From Pilasporangium apinafurcum (taxonomy: Eukaryota; Oomycota; Peronosporomycetes; Pythiales; Pythiaceae): a stretch of 64,000 nucleotides of DNA. A program made the translations under genes and the position numbers. Below are positions 1-55,740 of this stretch, one piece after another. Location of the stretch: positions 380,053-444,052 of the forward strand of contig BCKE01000017.1 in assembly GCA_001600495.1 (NCBI GenBank), written 5' to 3'. Numbering within the stretch: position 1 is the stretch's first letter; every line of letters starts with the position of its first letter. Under the pieces are notes generated by a model. It did no database searches. It saw only the letters and a program-made list of their open reading frames with translations, and had not been told where the DNA came from.

Positions 1-440
1 TTTGCGTAGTCGTGACCAATGCACTAACCTCTATCCCCCATTTCTCCTAAATCAAATCGATTGTCCAGAAAGCGTGGTACGATAGTATCGATGCAAAAGG
101 AAAACAAACATCACACATACAACTGTGAGAAACACTATACAACAAAGATTTGTTCTCACTGTGAGAGAATCAACTACACAATGAAGCACTAAAAAGTTTT
201 TCAATAGATGTACTGCAAGTTTGTTCTTGACAGAGATNTTAATGCTGGTAGAAACATCTTTCNCAAGAATGAACATTTATTCATCGAGTCCAGGTGTTGA
301 AGATGTCTACTCTGCGATTGTCTTGTCTTGATTAGACAAGTTGGACTCAAACGAAGAATAAAAGGTCCTTCCAGAGTTATCGGCATTTTGGCATCAAATG
401 ATCCCTTGGGTGGGGATGAGACGGAGCGAGACCCGAACGG
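1..440 (+). repeat. Dispersed repeat, copy 1, with decayed TnpB/Fanzor C-terminus
   Basis: This stretch matches 16735-17200 on the same strand and 55290-55740 on the opposite strand, and continues as far as about 420 (ATGATCCCTTGGGTGGGG, matching the third copy). Read at 124-300 it encodes, through stops and one frame, a zinc ribbon and the RuvC-III motif of TnpB/Fanzor proteins: TTKICSHCERINYT, then CKFVLDRDVNAGRNIF and KNEHLF before a stop. The DRDVNAxRNI string is diagnostic for the family. Compared with copy 2 it lacks a piece of about 60 bases near position 50. Two isolated N bases fall at the same places as in copy 2 or nearby, so reads of several copies were probably merged. The left end is cut by the window edge. 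Confidence 0.75.
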
Positions 441-16734: not shown

Positions 16735-17200
16735 ATCCCATCAGTGGGATCAATGGGCAATAGACGTTAACCTCTATCCATCATTTCTTCTATCTCTACG
16801 ATACATGTTGACGATAACAGTGCATGCCCGAGGCGATTGAGTGCGTGGAAAATCAAATCGATTGTCCAGAAAGCGTGGTACGATAGTATCGATGCAAAAG
16901 GAAAACAAACATCACACATACAACTGTGAGAAACACTATACAACAAAGATTTGTTCTCACTGTGAGAGAATCAACTACACAATGGAGCACTAAAAAGTTT
17001 TTCAATAGATGTACTGCAAGTTTGTTCTTGACAGAGATGTTAATGCTGGTAGAAACATCTTTCNCAAGAATGAACATTTATTCATCGAGTCCAGGTGTTG
17101 AAGATGTCTACTCTGCGATTATCTTGTCTTAATTAGACAAGTTGGACTCAAGCGAAGAGCAGGAGATCCTCTCAGAGTTACCAGTATTTCCATATCTCAA
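16735..17200 (+). repeat. Dispersed repeat, copy 2, with decayed TnpB/Fanzor zinc ribbon
   Basis: The best-preserved copy of the repeat also seen at 1-440 and 55290-55740. The coding remnant at 16925-17101 reads TTKICSHCERINYT, two stops, then CKFVLDRDVNAGRNIF and KNEHLF. This has the first CxxC knuckle, a second knuckle with one Cys left, and the DRDxNA RuvC-III motif of TnpB/Fanzor nucleases. It ends next to the thiolase leader (about 17200). The three copies differ by internal deletions, so the family is old and no longer coding. Confidence 0.75.
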
Positions 17201-30929: not shown

Positions 30930-31712
30930 CTATTGCTCGCGCGTCACAAGATCGGCCAGAGTTGTGATGATATCTTCACGAGGAAGAGCACCGCCATTCC
31001 AAGGTGGGAGAGTTCCGCGGCAAAGCCAACGTGAATGGGCGCCTACACCATGCGCCCCCTTGTAGTCCTTCTCTACGTGATCCCCTATATGTAGCACGTC
31101 CACATAGGAGCTACTGGATGAATCGCCACCTTGCAATCTCGAAAACGTCGTTTGGAAGATGGATGGATGTGGCTTCATGTGTGGTTGACCCCACGACGTC
31201 GTGATTACTTGGAAATACTCGGTCAGTCCTAATTCACGTAAAATCGACGGTAATCGTTCGTCAAAATTGGAAATCACACCTAATGCAACTCCATTCGAGC
31301 GCAAGTGTTCAAGCACTGGTAGAACATCGCTGAACACAGTCCATGCGCTAGAGGTCGCGAAATGGGCATATAGCTCCTGCGTGAGCTGCACACCAACACG
31401 TTCCGGAATCGATCCCAGTACATCCTGAGGTAAAGCATTCAAAATTAACTCCCTCCACCAGGGATATGCTGTCGTCACTGCAGGAAAGTATCCGAAATTC
31501 GGTTTTTCCTTGGAAAGACGACGGAAAACCTGCGGGAAACGCTCATTAATCGTGTTTTCCACGCTCTCGAAGAGCACGGGCGTGAGTGTTTCTTGTGTAG
31601 TTGCCATCCAATACTCTAGATATGTTTTTCCGATGCTTTGTCGTGGCCGAATGAGTGTACCTGTGGCGTCGAGCGTCACGTATCGCCACTTGAACATTTG
31701 TTTTCTCCGCAT
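30930..31712 (-). CDS. HAD-superfamily protein, HDHD3-like
   Basis: About 260 residues of the haloacid dehalogenase fold. Motif I is VTLDATGTLI near the N-terminus, motif II is VISNFDERL, motif III is the Lys of KPHPSIF, and motif IV is HIGDHVEKDYKGA. Motif I has Thr in place of the second Asp of the phosphatase DxDxT signature, as HDHD3-type members also depart from it, so phosphatase activity is doubtful. The spacing of motifs and the WW pair before the cap (AYPWWRELI) agree with HDHD3. I start at the ATG of MRRKQMFKW; the frame extends 12 codons further only to a GTG. A second ATG five codons later is equally possible. Substrate unknown. Confidence 0.83.
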   Translation of the reverse strand: MRRKQMFKWRYVTLDATGTLIRPRQSIGKTYLEYWMATTQETLTPVLFESVENTINERFPQVFRRLSKEKPNFGYFPAVTTAYPWWRELILNALPQDVLGSIPERVGVQLTQELYAHFATSSAWTVFSDVLPVLEHLRSNGVALGVISNFDERLPSILRELGLTEYFQVITTSWGQPHMKPHPSIFQTTFSRLQGGDSSSSSYVDVLHIGDHVEKDYKGAHGVGAHSRWLCRGTLPPWNGGALPREDIITTLADLVTREQ

Positions 31713-31888
31713 TTTGAGTTGATGAATGCAGACAAAGTGACACCTCACTAATATCCAACATATGCTAAATATGGTAAATATTGAAAAAAGGTATCATTTG
31801 GTAACTCAGAGATGATCTTTATTTACCTTGAGTTTCTTCCAAACAATCAACGCGTGAGTCGTTCTCCACACTACCAAGCTAGTGCAAA

Positions 31889-32185
31889 TTACAATACCCC
31901 GAGGAAGGCAGCCCCGATCGTGCGAGGGCGATGCGTCCAGGTGAGTTTATATTCATTCTTGAGATAGATGTTGCGAGCAGCATTCATATCTCGATCCATA
32001 ATAGAGAGATATCCTGGACATACAAACACTTTCTGTACTTTCATGTCTTCGTCGTGAACTCTTCTTTAAATTCGATCAGCCGTTCACCTGCTCGTTCCAT
32101 CTTGTACTGCAACATCATATTAAACTTGTAGTGAGACCTCCAAGCATATGAATTTGCAAAGTGATTCTCTTATTATTATTTTGTC
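31889..32185 (-). pseudogene. TnpB/Fanzor2-like nuclease remnant
   Basis: The minus strand first reads SYAWRSHYKFNMMLQYKMER, then AGERLIEFKEEFTTKT and a stop. After a frame change come KVFVCPGYLS and DRDMNAARNIYLKNEYKL, then about 15 residues to a TAA at 31889-31891. This is the conserved end of TnpB-like proteins: helix before the zinc ribbon, TTKT, part of the second knuckle (VCPGY), and the RuvC-III motif DRDxNAARNI. The first CxxC is lost at the frameshift (near 32057). Everything upstream of about 32185 is gone or unrecognisable. The RNI.LKNE ending resembles the dispersed repeat, so both may come from one family. It lies 150 bases from a different, nearly complete Fanzor element. Confidence 0.8.
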
Positions 32186-32333
32186 TTACTTTGGTATCTA
32201 AGCGTAACATCGAATCTAGAGTATTGTATTGCATATGATGCACAGATACATCTCTTATATGAATGGAAATGAGGAGGATAGTCGACAAAATGACAAAGAA
32301 GTAAGATCCATAGCATATAGAAATCTTTTAACT

Positions 32334-32387
32334 TTTATTCCCCAGGTGTTCTGTACCATGTGTGGTACAGAACACCTGGGGAATAAA
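32334..32387. repeat. Perfect 25-bp terminal hairpin over the nuclease stop codon
   Basis: Two arms of 25 bases (32334-32358 and 32363-32387) are perfectly complementary around a TGTG loop; a T-G wobble and a C-G pair extend the stem by two. On the minus strand the hairpin encodes the last 15 residues of the nuclease and its TAA. In Fanzor and TnpB systems the guide RNA comes from the end of the gene and runs off the element end, so this hairpin is a candidate guide-RNA scaffold end as well as a transposon terminus. Confidence 0.85.
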
Positions 32388-34341
32388 GGCTACACTCATC
32401 CGTTTCCGGAACCATAGCAATGAGGTCGTTTATCACCTCAGTTTTTGATTTCGAGTACCAATTCATTTTTTTCCTCGTGAATGCCTCGAGTCTCTTCTTT
32501 TTCTTCACTTGGTCGATGAATACTCTCAAAACGTCGATTTCGGCGTTGATGTCACGATCCCACAATGTGTGATGACATTCATTATTTTTGCAGTGTCGAA
32601 CACTATAAAGACCGTCACTGACAATTTTTCCATCAAGGACGAACTCCTTCATCTTCTTGTGACAAGCACAACACAGCTTGCTCGTCCTGAACTCGTCCAC
32701 ATCAACAACACGACACCTGGAACCAATTTTCTTCCGTAGGGTCATTGTAGGAACAGCAATGTTGCCTTTAGCTGAGCTTGTGAAATTTGCATCTCCATAC
32801 GCGATAATGGTTCGTTTATTACCATCTGTAAGGTTCTTAACTATCTTCTCGTACGTCTGTTGCCGATGGATGTAGATCGACCATCGTAGCCTCTTCATCC
32901 TCCTTGATGAATACACGTCAAGAAGACGATCCAAATACACGAGACAAAATCTCGTCCGTTTCAAATAGGAGACAAGGTTCGCAACTTTTGCCGAAGGAAC
33001 GTTTTCATTGAAGGTTTTGATGTCAGGCTCAGCATCAATCCACTCTTTGGTCAACTTTGTTCGTCTGTGGTAGCCACACTCTCTGTAGCAACGGCCGTTA
33101 GACCAGTGGATGACTTCATGTTTCACGTTCTCTCCTTTCGGCTTTTGCAGCGTAGTCATACTTTCCTCTTTGTAGACAACAGCAGTGAAGATCTTCTTTC
33201 TCCTCGGATCTAAACCGATGATCCAGTCTTCAAGAGAAAATGTTTCTTTTTGCTCTCTCTCGGGAAGCTTTGAACGGGAGATTGTCACACCAACTGACAT
33301 ACTATCGATCGAGATGAAGTGCTCAAACTCCTTTCGCTGGACTTTGGTCACAAGACCTATATTGAACTACGTGCGCCATAACTCAGCTTTATCAGCGTAA
33401 AGCTCAACAGGATCACTCAAAGCCTTAGGAAGTTCCTTCAGGACGACGATGTTGATCTTGATGAAAATGGGTTTGAAGTGTCTCTGTGGAAGCAGAGACC
33501 AGACTCGACAACCCTTCATTCCATCATCCATATGGGCTTGTATGTCTTTTAGCATTGTGTGAAGAAAAGGCATGTAACATTCCGGAGAGCTCTTCAACTT
33601 GAGTGGCAGCGGTCCGACCTCGTTTCTCACTCTATCCGATAATTCCTGCATCCAAACAATCTCCGCAGCAGGGATGGGATACTTCTTGAACCTGGAGTAC
33701 GCGGACATCAGGGCGGATAAGCTATGCTGAGTTTGGGTGCTTGCACGGACCAGCAGTGAAACAGCGCTCTTGATTATCTTGCCTTGGTGCTTTTCAAAAT
33801 AGGCAGTGTTGTGAAGACGTATCTGCAGGCGCATCCACTTACACAACCGGGAGCAGAACGTCAATCGGTTACTGACTTGAAAATTCTGCCTTGCTTGTTG
33901 AGCGATCATAACCAACATCTGAGCCATGTGGGGTCTTCGTTCTGTCAGTTCATAATCCGAAGGGTATTGGGTTCTGTAAAGGTCTAGACTGGTTTCCAAT
34001 TCAGGATTGACGACCTTTCTGTTGCCGGTCAAGTTGGCTATTGCAGATGTGCATCGATTGAAAAAGTCATTATCCAATGAAGGGAGTTCTTCGCCAGCTC
34101 CCAATAATCGCAGAATATGGACGGATACCAGCATAGATACCTCACATGCTATTCTTGAACAAACTCGCACAGCCTCATCAATCTTTTCCGCCATTCTTTT
34201 GTCTTTGCAAAACTTTCTCCAGCCAGTCTTCACAGTGGTGTAGACTATTTGCTTTTGTCGAGCTTTCCGTTCCGCAAAATCCGGACGGGCTCTCCGCTTT
34301 TTAGTGGTGTTCTCTTCAATACCATGGCTCGTTGATGTCAT
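32335..34341 (-). pseudogene. Fanzor1-type RNA-guided nuclease, one in-frame TAG
   Basis: A 668-codon reading frame, open except for a single TAG at codon 325 (33367-33369); both sides are in the same frame, so one substitution separates it from a complete gene. Family known activity: RNA-guided DNA cleavage by a RuvC domain. Features: basic helical N-terminal half (residues 1-324); RuvC-I at IIGLDPRRKKIF (D378); IIAYGDANF (514-520 region) where the second RuvC motif is expected, without the usual Glu, as Fanzor1 proteins have a rearranged second acidic residue; zinc ribbon with C557/C560 (KLCCACHKKM) and C584/C589 (HCKNNECH); RuvC-III DRDINA (595-600). The start is the ATG of MTSTSHGIEE; the frame runs 49 codons further to a TTG. 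The TAG could be a true mutation, a sequencing error or a readthrough codon. An intron removing it would be too short (14 bases). Confidence 0.85.
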
Positions 34342-34766
34342 TGTATCACAATATTCAAAAACAAGAACGCTTCGTAGTTGGTTTGATTTTTTGATTATGC
34401 TGTTTCTCAAAGCTGCAGTTCTTTCTGTTTTGGCGAATGGTGTTGAAGCGACACTCAATAGATGGACTTGAGGTGGCAAATACTTCAATTCAATACGCTT
34501 CGCTATTGAGAAGCCGGAAACGATTCATTCAAGAGATGCCACCAAAATGAGAAATTCTCAAACTCCTGAGAAGTACCTTGTGGTGTATACTTGATTTTCC
34601 TAACTTCATATATCTTAACCTTTTTCTCCACTCAAGGTGTATAATTTCATTTTTCTGGAAACGCGATTGATCGTCAACATGGCCTTTCAAGATGATTGTG
34701 CACACAGCAAAAATCACCAAGGAGTCTCTCCATCCAATGAATACTAAAGTCTACTCTCAAGGCAAT
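34342..34766. other. 5' leader of the Fanzor element
   Basis: About 425 bases between the nuclease ATG and the right terminal hairpin, presumably its promoter and leader. No second gene in it. Confidence 0.5.
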
Positions 34767-34817
34767 CTTTATTCCCCACATCATTTGTACAGCACGTTGT
34801 ACAAGTGGGGAATAAAG
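34767..34817. repeat. Bulged terminal hairpin, right end of Fanzor element
   Basis: Outer stem of 13 bp (CTTTATTCCCCAC with its complement ending GGGGAATAAAG), an ATCAT bulge on one side, an inner stem TTGTACA/TGTACAA and a GCACGT loop. The outer ten bases equal those of the hairpin at 32334-32387, the inner parts differ, so the shared TTTATTCCCC is the terminal repeat proper. Confidence 0.8.
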
Positions 34818-34930
34818 GTTGAATAATGAACTCGCGGACAGTATTTCCCTGAATTTTGGTGTGCACCACGCCATCTAGGATCAGAAAGGGAGAGAGAAAA
34901 AATCATCCATTGGAAGTTGCACCTAATGAG

Positions 34931-35710
34931 ATGATGACAATGATGATGATAGTTGCTCTCCTGACGTTCTTGCTATGCGTGATCTCTCAAAGCACCGCTC
35001 GCATAGCTTCGTCTGAAGATCGGCTCACTCGACAACAGCACCGTCATCTGCGTGTGGACGCACAACTGCTTTGCTCAAAGTTTGCGGTAATTTGTGAAGA
35101 TGTCATCGCCAACTGCAATGATGTAGAAGAGCACAAAACTGCATCTCCGACGTGCGAGAAAAGTTTCCAGTTTTTCTACGACGAACAATCACTACTAATG
35201 CAATGTGAGCACCACACCAGCGTGACTGACATCCAGAAACAGCACATGCTGCGTTTTATGGAAATGTACACGCACTGGCAGCAGGGCAACGTCTGTCGGA
35301 TCTTCCACGAACAAGAGAAGAAAGCAGCACATGAATGCTCAGGTGCGAACGTGCATCGACCATGGAAACAAGACACGTGGCCGCTGTTTTGCCATAAAAT
35401 CTTCACGAGTTACAATACCATGCGAAATGAAATCGACCCTCTTTGCGGGCGAACAGCGCACTCGGATGCTTTCTGGGAGGGGTTCGTGGATTACATTGGC
35501 TCACCGACATGCAAGCGGTATTACGACCGCATCCGCAGTGCTGTTTCACACGACTGTGGATCCAAAGATGCATTGACCAACATTGCATGTGTGGAGATGT
35601 TTGAATGGTATGCGCAGCACCAACAGGTGATTGAAGTAGATTGTTATGAGTTACGCACGAGCAAAGCGTTCTATAAAGGTTATTATAAATGGAAAGCCTC
35701 CAAGCATTAG
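34931..35710 (+). CDS. Secreted Cys-repeat protein with RHLR motif
   Basis: 259 residues. MMTMMMIVALLTFLLCVIS is a signal peptide, so the product should be secreted. RHLR at residues 38-41, preceded by an acidic SSED, fits the position of an oomycete RxLR host-translocation motif; no EER follows, so this may be chance. The mature part holds five repeats of a Cys pair 15-19 residues apart with aromatic residues between (e.g. TCEKSFQFFYDEQSLLMQC, FCHKIFTSYNTMRNEIDPLC, TCKRYYDRIRSAVSHDC), probably disulfide-linked helical hairpins. I do not recognise the family. The start is the first ATG; the frame extends upstream 25 codons only to a TTG. The ATG lies 113 bases from the hairpin end of the Fanzor element, which may have altered its promoter. 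Confidence 0.8.
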   Translation: MMTMMMIVALLTFLLCVISQSTARIASSEDRLTRQQHRHLRVDAQLLCSKFAVICEDVIANCNDVEEHKTASPTCEKSFQFFYDEQSLLMQCEHHTSVTDIQKQHMLRFMEMYTHWQQGNVCRIFHEQEKKAAHECSGANVHRPWKQDTWPLFCHKIFTSYNTMRNEIDPLCGRTAHSDAFWEGFVDYIGSPTCKRYYDRIRSAVSHDCGSKDALTNIACVEMFEWYAQHQQVIEVDCYELRTSKAFYKGYYKWKASKH

Positions 35711-35847
35711 CATCACACCCATACAAAGCAAGTGACTGAGTGACATAACGTAATTATATGCGCATCAACAATGACCATCCTCTAATGTGTAATTTGTGGA
35801 ACTTTTGCTCGTGAAAGGTCGTCCTTGCGCGTGATGCTCTGTCTATC

Positions 35848-37543
35848 ATGCTGAAGTACACCAACTTTCTATGGTTGCTCCTGCAATTATACTGGATCAT
35901 CCTGGGTGTCTCGGCAGGTAAGACATGCTTGCTAGCTTTCATCCATGACACCTCCATGTTTCCTATCTCTATCAACGATCGCATTATCACGGTTATGTCT
36001 TCGTCGCAGAATTTGTCTATTACGATTTCAACGCGACCACGGGACTCATTCTCAATGGCAACGCAGCCACAAGTAGCTGTATTCATGTTTCAAAGGTAAG
36101 TGACAATGGATATGCCAATGCAAAAGCCCTTGAAAACGAACTTATTATGCTTTCGTTGGCATGTGGAACCTTGCAGAATGACTATTCGGATCGAGCAGGA
36201 GCCGATGATCTGATTGAAGCCTTATTGGAACCAGTACAGCATCAGCAGGTAGAAACAATGATGACCGAAACAACAGAGACAGAAATTCCTACCACCAGCG
36301 CGCACATTACCATGGAGGAAGCAATGTTTGGGCATCGTAATGTCTTTGCAGAGAGTCTGACAACGCGCTGCGCGGTGCGTTTGCGACTGACAGCTTCCCA
36401 GCCACGACAAGTTTCGTCAGTGTGGTATGCAGAGCCATTACCGGTGCTACAGGGCTTTGAAACACGCTTTACGTTCCAGATCACGGACCAGTCCAAACAC
36501 TGTTTGGAGGTCAAGGACCAAAACTTTGGCATCCGGCACTACCAAAGTTGCAGTGTCCATGGCGGCGACGGATTCGCCTTCGTGCTTCATTCGCATCCCA
36601 ATAAAACAGCGACTGTGGGAAGAAACAATTTCGTCACGAAAGAGCGGAGTGCCTTGGGGTACGAAGGCATCGCAAACTCACTTGCGATTGAATTCGATAC
36701 GTGGTTTAATACCGAGTACCCGGATACGTTTTATGATCACGTCACTATTTATTCAAATGGTCATATGGAAAATTCGATGCTAGAGAATGCACGGCTTTCC
36801 ACGACGGCATTGCAAGATATTGCTGACGGACGCATTCACTCTGTTAAGATTCGGTATTATAATGAGCTACGAGTAAGTGCTTGGCATGCTTCATGCACAA
36901 CTTGAGTATAGTATTATGCACGCTGATTGTCTACGATCGATAGTATGAGTACGCACCATTCTTCTCGTCCACGTCCAAGTTGATCTCCTTTGTAAAGGAT
37001 GTGTCCGAAGGTCGTCGCGTGGGGACACTGGTGGTGTTTACTGATAACGGCATCGACAGCGACACACCACTATTAGCAGTTCCGATTAATCTCGCTGCTA
37101 CGCTGCGGCTTGATTCTGACGAAGCCTATGTGGTAAATCGATTGACTCGCTCCTACACATTGTTAAATCACTCATTTCACCCCATTTGAATATCCAGGGA
37201 TTCACTGCGTCAACAGGAAAATCCTGGCAGAAACACGATATCCTGGGCTGGTACTACTGCACGCATGTACGTTATACATGCACATACTCTCCATGATTTG
37301 AGTGCAACTTTCTGTCATGGGCATGCAACTCATAACCCGTTTTTGTGATCTGATTAGCCGCCATGTCTAGACGAATACGGTACTGAGATGGCATTTGACT
37401 TTGATTATAACCACCAGTCCATGCTTTCCACGGCTACACATGCGCACAACCTCTATCCGATCTACATATACCCAGATACGACACCATGGGCCAAACGGCA
37501 AACGTATTTCGCTACCAACCAGCAAATCGGTTTGATTTCTTGA
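35848..37543 (+). CDS. Secreted L-type lectin-domain protein (five exons)
   Basis: Exons 35848-35917, 36010-36872, 36944-37132, 37198-37266 and 37358-37543 join in frame with GT-AG introns (458 residues). Exon 1 is a signal peptide (MLKYTNFLWLLLQLYW, then IILGVSA). Exon 2 opens with FVYYDFNATTGLILNGNAA, a typical L-type lectin beta strand. Later signatures are GGDGFAFVLH, SLAIEFDTWFN (metal and sugar site region), INLAATLRLD, AYVGFTASTG, KSWQKHDILGWYYC and a C-x3-C (CTHPPC). An insert in exon 2 rich in Glu and Thr (about residues 75-125) interrupts the fold. L-type lectins bind glycans; this one is probably exported or cell-wall bound. It could continue through a further exon, because the TGA follows a Cys-poor end. 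Confidence 0.82.
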
Positions 37544-55289: not shown

Positions 55290-55740
55290 CTACCGAAATG
55301 CTGGTAACTCAAGGAGGATCTCCTGCTCTTTGTTTGGGTCCAACTTGATTAATCAAGACTAGGCAACCACGAAGTTGCCAGCTTCGATATTTGGACTCGA
55401 TGAATAAATGTTCATTCTTGAAAAAGATGTTGTATGTGTGATCTTTGCCTTCCTTTCGTACCGATACTACCGCATCACGATTTATGGACAATCACTTTGA
55501 TTTTCCACGCGTTCGATCGTCTCGGGCATGCACTGTCATCGTCTCGCACCCGCTTTTGAAAAGAAGAATGGTGCCGAAAAAAGCTCATTGTGGAGAATTG
55601 GGAGCAATTTTCTGCTTCTATCGATGTGGATCTGTTCGCTTTAAAAAAACAGGTCAAAGTGTATCGTAGAGGTAGGAGAAATGAGGGATAGAGATTGATG
55701 TCTATTGCCCATTGATCCCGTCAGTGGAATTTTGCTTTGG
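55290..55740 (-). repeat. Dispersed repeat, copy 3 (inverted)
   Basis: Reverse complement of the family at 16735-17200: the shared start reads GATCAATGGGCAATAGACAT, then CAGTGCATGCCCGAGACGAT. The TnpB-like zinc ribbon has been removed by a deletion that joins CATACAAC directly to ATCTTTTTCAAGAATGAAC, with AAC at both edges of the missing part, a typical short-homology deletion. The KNEHLF end remains. Confidence 0.75.

Follow-up and report, generated by a model that had tools for sequence, protein, structure and literature searches.

A decaying Fanzor1 element with TTAA-flanked hairpin ends in the oomycete Pilasporangium apinafurcum

The 64,000-nucleotide stretch of Pilasporangium apinafurcum DNA analysed here (GenBank assembly GCA_001600495.1, contig BCKE01000017.1, positions 380,053 to 444,052; the window) contains a dead copy of a DNA element whose only gene encodes a Fanzor1-type RNA-guided nuclease. 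The element belongs to a family that spread through the genome in a burst and is now decaying. We propose that the living family was mobilised in trans by a transposase and copied back into its sites with the help of the nuclease and an RNA guide. We put the probability of this reading, dead copy and model together, at roughly 85%. Other copies and loci of the genome are designated by L numbers.

A Fanzor1 protein with a rearranged active site

The first-pass annotation had recognised a Fanzor1 protein from sequence motifs, and this identity is supported by matches far beyond chance. The frame matches the Pfam TNB domain (E 6.3e-5, below the curated cut-off), SpuFz1 (E 1.4e-4 by single-sequence search and 2.8e-14 by profile search), and seven environmental relatives (E 7.6e-161 to 3.7e-45). 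SpuFz1 is its best match in the PDB, and the frame resembles the solved Fanzor1 proteins in both sequence and fold. The motifs GLDPRR (residues 376-381), YGDANF (515-520), and WDRD, which includes D597, are present as had been described, together with the zinc-ribbon cysteines.

The canonical RuvC-II glutamate is absent and the active site is rearranged, as had been suggested; the glutamate is not missing from the protein, being replaced, by prediction, by E550. This residue is positioned exactly six residues ahead of the first zinc-ribbon cysteine, C557, and aligns with the DEYKTS segment of SpuFz1, whose metal ligands are D383, N385, E541, and D606 (PMC10432273). Fanzors are marked by a glutamate at an alternative position ("Ealt"), six residues N-terminal to the zinc finger (PMC10711439), and E550 gives the window copy this feature. 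The motif common to Fanzor and TnpB, D-X(125,275)-[TS][TS]-X-X-[C4 zinc finger]-X(5,50)-RD (Bao and Jurka 2013), is also present: D378 is separated by 174 residues from T553-S554, these by two residues from C557, and C589 by six residues from R596-D597.

A D-P-G triplet in RuvC1 is nearly exclusive to Fanzors (PMC10711439). It is found in six of the seven environmental relatives and in 12 of 28 aligned copies from the genome, next to D-P-R in two (L012, L030), D-P-E in two (L019, L029), and D-S-G in one (L020). Eleven of the 28 are blurred by gaps or not covered at RuvC-I; for two of these eleven, L027 and L038, direct translation gives D-P-G. The family has the D-P-G feature, and the dead window copy, with D-P-R, departs from it.

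Ends and insertion sites of the element

The element exceeds the interval originally reported, spanning 32332-34818 plus the TTAA duplications (Table 1). Homology to other copies stops sharply: of 20 copies, 13 at the left end and 14 at the right break off only a few bases from a common point. The left end opens with TTAA-CCTTTATTCCCC and the right end closes with GGGGAATAAAGG-TTAA, each repeat forming an arm of a terminal hairpin. Allowing exact matches or one mismatch, the outer ends were found at 251 + 254 places in the genome, and a reversed control pattern at 0 + 0. From the first 100 end places we sampled 73, omitting places in or near loci already sampled and dropping L032 as a duplicate of L031. 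This family contributes 21 left and 15 right ends to the sample, a second family that shares its outer repeat contributes 33, and four ends are unclassed (L090, L106, L108, L118). L090 and L106 each consist of a solo terminal hairpin, some 60 bp long and with TTAA-like sites on both sides, as though its inner arm had acted as the opposite end, and the hairpin loop at the left end of L022 is flipped.

Table 1 Features of the element and its flanks, in window coordinates
Feature	Position	Strand	Basis
Whole element, 2487 bp, gene on minus strand; left end (5' of gene) 34818, right end 32332	32332..34818	minus	homology limits
Degenerate TTAA, left end, with T (34823) before it on the gene strand	34819..34822	unstranded	
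Left-end hairpin, holds left inverted repeat (5'-CCTTTATTCCCC, gene strand)	34763..34818	minus	inverted-repeat search
Fanzor1 reading frame, 668 codons with one TAG	32335..34341	minus	homology searches, translation
In-frame TAG, codon 325	33367..33369	minus	translation, copy alignment
RuvC-I catalytic Asp D378 (D-P-R here)	33208..33210	minus	aligns with GtFz1 D-P-G
Predicted catalytic Glu E550, alternative position	32692..32694	minus	alignment, spacing to zinc ribbon
Zinc ribbon, cysteines 557/558/560 and 584/589	32575..32673	minus	Pfam TNB match, translation
RuvC-III catalytic Asp D597	32551..32553	minus	aligns with SpuFz1 NRD
Frameshift site, about codon 625, relative to 24/25 other copies	32467..32469	minus	copy alignment
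3' non-coding part, candidate omega-RNA scaffold	32332..32437	minus	position by analogy with SpuFz1 (PMC10432273), folds
Right-end hairpin, 58 nt, 27-bp palindrome, holds right inverted repeat	32332..32389	minus	RNA fold, -45.0 kcal/mol
TTAA target-site duplication, right end	32328..32331	unstranded	single site in empty paralogues of two other insertions
Host flank right after right-end TTAA, putative guide	32308..32327	minus	analogy with Fanzor/TnpB loci
Relic of a second Fanzor/TnpB-type zinc-ribbon family, two frames	31955..32136	minus	tblastn with L122 frame, E 1e-11

Copies L009 and L016 are inserted at one identical spot of another repeat, and the joined L009 flanks occur without the element at at least 20 places (40 of 259 candidates scored). 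In an alignment of seven of these empty places, five have a single TTAA and two have TTGA. Therefore, TTAA is duplicated on insertion, a target-site duplication of the piggyBac type. The 5' non-coding part (34342-34760), which covers 418 nt before the start codon, is the least diverse part of the element compared across 14 copies (0.063 vs 0.081-0.111 for coding parts).

The TTAA sites point to a mover of the piggyBac type or to another TTAA user. The genome contains three piggyBac-type (DDE_Tnp_1_7) stretches, one of them within an open 546-amino-acid frame, and L040 and L034 contain possible, degenerate end-like hairpins at a distance of about 5.4 kb. TTAA is also used by other superfamilies, such as Kolobok.

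Outer base of the left end and the proposed recognition motif

In the inward direction, TTAA is preceded by T at 34 of 40 left ends and at 14 of 34 right ends (Fisher 1.8e-4). Compared with the 28.5% background of the window, T is enriched at left ends (p=1.5e-13) and not significantly so at right ends (p=0.13). Among 13 elements with both ends mapped, T is present only on the left in seven and only on the right in none (sign test 0.016). In SpuFz1 elements, the CATA motif measured for the nuclease is made up of two conserved bases outside the left repeat and the putative TA duplication. The measured motif of GtFz1 is TTAAN, and TTAA is assigned to GtFz1 in PMC10432273; one sentence of PMC11423790 swaps CATA and TTAA, and a later passage of that paper assigns TTAA to GtFz1. 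By analogy, TTTAA may be the motif of the nuclease of this family.

We hypothesize that the living family was moved in trans by a TTAA-inserting transposase, of the piggyBac type or another. Fanzor would have been loaded with an RNA from the right end that extended some 15-20 nt into the flank. The loaded nuclease would have cleaved chromosomes in which the site was still empty, and repair would have copied the element back. The T beside TTAA, mainly at left ends, would then be a trace of the motif 5'-TTTAA required by the nuclease. A joint reading, which we regard as tentative and as falling short of even odds, is that the transposase target site doubles as the nuclease recognition motif, the T and the TTAA duplication together giving 5'-TTTAA. 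Insertion orientation in the family would be biased because Fanzor could retain, or copy back, those elements that were suitably oriented. Several Fanzor lineages with one TTAA end type in one genome would constitute an RNA-guided retention system serving transposase-less elements in trans. The role of Fanzors for the elements that carry them is described as an open question (PMC10432273). The hundreds of ends, the empty sites, and the left-biased outer base make the idea that motif equals target site testable on genome data, and the family yields a motif prediction that can be checked by a simple in vitro screen.

The candidate guide RNA occupies the 106 nt from the stop position of the family to the right end, whose fold in the window copy consists of small stems together with the 27-bp hairpin. 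A search of positions 31000-36000 against Rfam gave no matches at E<=0.1. We counted hairpin pairs in 18 of 36 right ends, omitting short or odd ends. Pairing is retained in 91.2% of cells, and six pairs have changed on both sides, a number matched by 4 of 500 shuffles.

Several observations weigh against the proposed reading. The predicted structure of the protein has a mean predicted local distance difference test score of 53.7, and most of residues 328-428 and 479-668 score below 50. D378 is placed only through the GtFz1 row and the motif, because the RuvC-I segments are out of register in the SpuFz1 alignment row. The 7.7 kb around the open piggyBac-type frame contain no matching pair of inverted repeats. 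The 3' non-coding part displays no extra conservation (diversity 0.095 vs 0.081-0.111 for coding parts; 14 copies), and the highest value among the parts compared, 0.165, is that of the right-end hairpin. The hairpin shows weak covariation, for which conversion of the palindrome at the DNA level could account. Since the hairpin is the most variable part and palindromes can be converted as DNA, its kept pairing is no proof of an RNA. The test of the outer T is uneven (p=0.058 for ends found by pattern and 0.0025 for ends found by protein), and asymmetric transposase ends could have caused the left bias.

It is also plausible, again at somewhat less than one chance in two, that RNA-guided cutting has no part in the left-biased T and the hairpins, and that both stem from the transposase (asymmetric end recognition, cruciforms, flipping palindromes). 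The flipped left-end loop of L022, the two solo hairpins among the 73 sampled ends, and the right hairpin, which varies more than the other parts compared, are in line with such an origin. It is opposed by the same arrangement in SpuFz1, where the bases outside the left repeat and the duplication equal the measured motif, and by the TTAA motif measured for GtFz1.

Lesions of the window copy

The first-pass annotation had described a 668-codon frame broken only by a TAG at codon 325, without giving a strand. The frame and its stop are present, on the minus strand; the claim of a single lesion is refuted by a frameshift near codon 625. Over nucleotides 1860-1900 of the open reading frame, 23 of the 25 other copies covered have a net additional base relative to the window copy, L018 has two additional bases, and L022 has no net difference. 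Because of the frameshift, the final approximately 43 codons of the reported frame are out of frame. This tail corresponds to the 3' non-coding part and terminal hairpin, and the frames of the relatives L027 and L038 close roughly 10 codons past the frameshift point.

Codon 325 is a sense codon in 25 of the 26 other copies that cover it, as the annotation had proposed to check, and L011 has the identical stop. A tree of 23 long copies, including that of the window, groups L011 with L018, away from the window copy. Common descent of the two stops was rejected, as the copies are not sisters and the TAG is the only variant shared exclusively by them; independent mutation fits better. A sequencing error at codon 325 of the window copy is possible, but the stop recurs in the non-sister L011.

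The annotation had also supposed that the nuclease was recently active or is still usable, the TAG being a sequencing error, a young mutation, or read through. The window copy has the fewest stops among 12 rows spanning at least 600 residues, among the matches listed, and it retains the three catalytic acids and the cysteines. Before codon 626 it has one stop, as do L017, L022, and L030. A usable gene is nevertheless very improbable in view of the frameshift relative to 24 of 25 copies, the motif other than D-P-G, a terminal branch of 5.7%, and the identical stop in the non-sister copy L011. Every one of the 12 long rows, among the matches listed, contains at least one stop, which also speaks against recent activity. 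The window copy is unable to make the protein because of the stop, the frameshift, and the changed RuvC-I motif.

Burst and decay of the family

A protein search of the 36.5 Mb genome (136 contigs; 66 of 889 candidates scored) revealed at least 78 matching stretches, some of which are pieces of one copy. The tree is star-like, with terminal branches of 0.03-0.07 save for one duplicated pair. Mean pairwise divergence is 9.7% (0.092/0.085/0.113 by codon position), and singletons number 164/138/172 by codon position. These values indicate that the family expanded in a burst and then decayed almost neutrally, and they retain a modest sign of past coding constraint. Codon position 3 is slightly more divergent than the other two across the family, so that for some of its history the family remained under selection for coding function. 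This speaks for a domesticated host gene with a cellular role, an explanation that we consider the least probable of all given the hundreds of ends, the empty sites, the stops in all long rows, and the near-neutral singletons.

Many rows from the genome, among the matches listed, start near residue 172. In both cases examined, L027 and L028, residues 1-171 are lost and a different 5' part is present instead; such copies therefore moved although they encoded no full-length protein themselves. In L027 (2678-4102) and L028, residue 172 onward is kept behind about 0.8 kb of unrelated 5' sequence, and L027 has an open 475-amino-acid frame with RuvC and zinc ribbon. L031 and L032 (G000 C50) are inverted relative to each other, about 4 kb apart, with zero differences over the compared coding sites, and represent either a local inverted duplication or an assembly effect.

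Other Fanzor-like sequences and window surroundings

The second family is represented by L122, which has a TNB zinc-ribbon frame (E 2.4e-21) with a glutamate six residues before the first cysteine. Further relics of this family, which shares the terminal inverted repeats, are located at window positions 121-291, 16922-17113, and 55314-55695, identified by protein or DNA matches to L122. TNB domains scoring above the cut-off occur at at least 150 places in the genome (150 of 852 candidates scored); long open TNB frames, which partly cross N stretches, are left out of any count of intact genes. At L127, L131, and other places, some broken by N stretches, there is a third Fanzor-like family (CALDPG... 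CSRCGK... DHDRDVSAAKNIF). L126 (G000 C135:16000-19300) encodes an open 638-amino-acid TnpB-like protein on a 20-kb contig, with D-P-G and a glutamate at an apparently canonical place; it could be a contaminant or a recent arrival. For the reading frame of L123, no sequence match supported an identity as a Fanzor.

Adjoining the element, window positions 34931-35710 on the plus strand hold a small-protein frame with a hydrophobic start, an RHLR motif, and no Pfam match. The motif is presumably of the kind that occurs in secreted oomycete proteins.

Comparison with known Fanzor elements

A search of viral contigs returned 63 pattern matches and no relatives. Our literature searches found no report of this family in the accessible texts, and the Albugo families named in PMC3627910 could be the same.

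Among the closest known systems is SPu-1, the SpuFz1 element of Spizellomyces punctatus. In both, Fanzor1 is the main gene and each end has an inverted repeat; they also share the lack of an internal transposase, many partial and gene-less copies, and one or more conserved bases just outside the left repeat. SPu-1 differs in its putative TA duplication and CATA motif, in place of TTAA, and in its 30-33-bp repeats, in place of hairpin ends. Nine copies with an intact frame are reported for SPu-1, whereas none was seen here. The loci of GtFz1, the Fanzor1 of Guillardia theta, apparently lack inverted repeats in the published descriptions available. GtFz1 has asparagine as its third catalytic residue, where the window copy has aspartate; asparagine is found at this place in four environmental relatives (P0002, P0004, P0005, P0007).

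The Fanzor1 families of insect viruses (Bao and Jurka 2013) similarly have 4-bp TTAN duplications, short inverted repeats, and no known transposase. Their repeats are 13 bp long and they reside in viral genomes, whereas the family described here has hairpin ends and is present in many copies in a eukaryote. PUl-4 of Pythium, a Mariner-type element with Fanzor only, is likewise an oomycete Fanzor element and differs in its TA duplications (Bao and Jurka 2013). Two Fanzor1 families of Albugo laibachii, compared by their listing in the same paper, share the presence of Fanzor in an oomycete. The window copy itself is ordinary, and the surrounding family adds a member to a known kind of Fanzor1 element.
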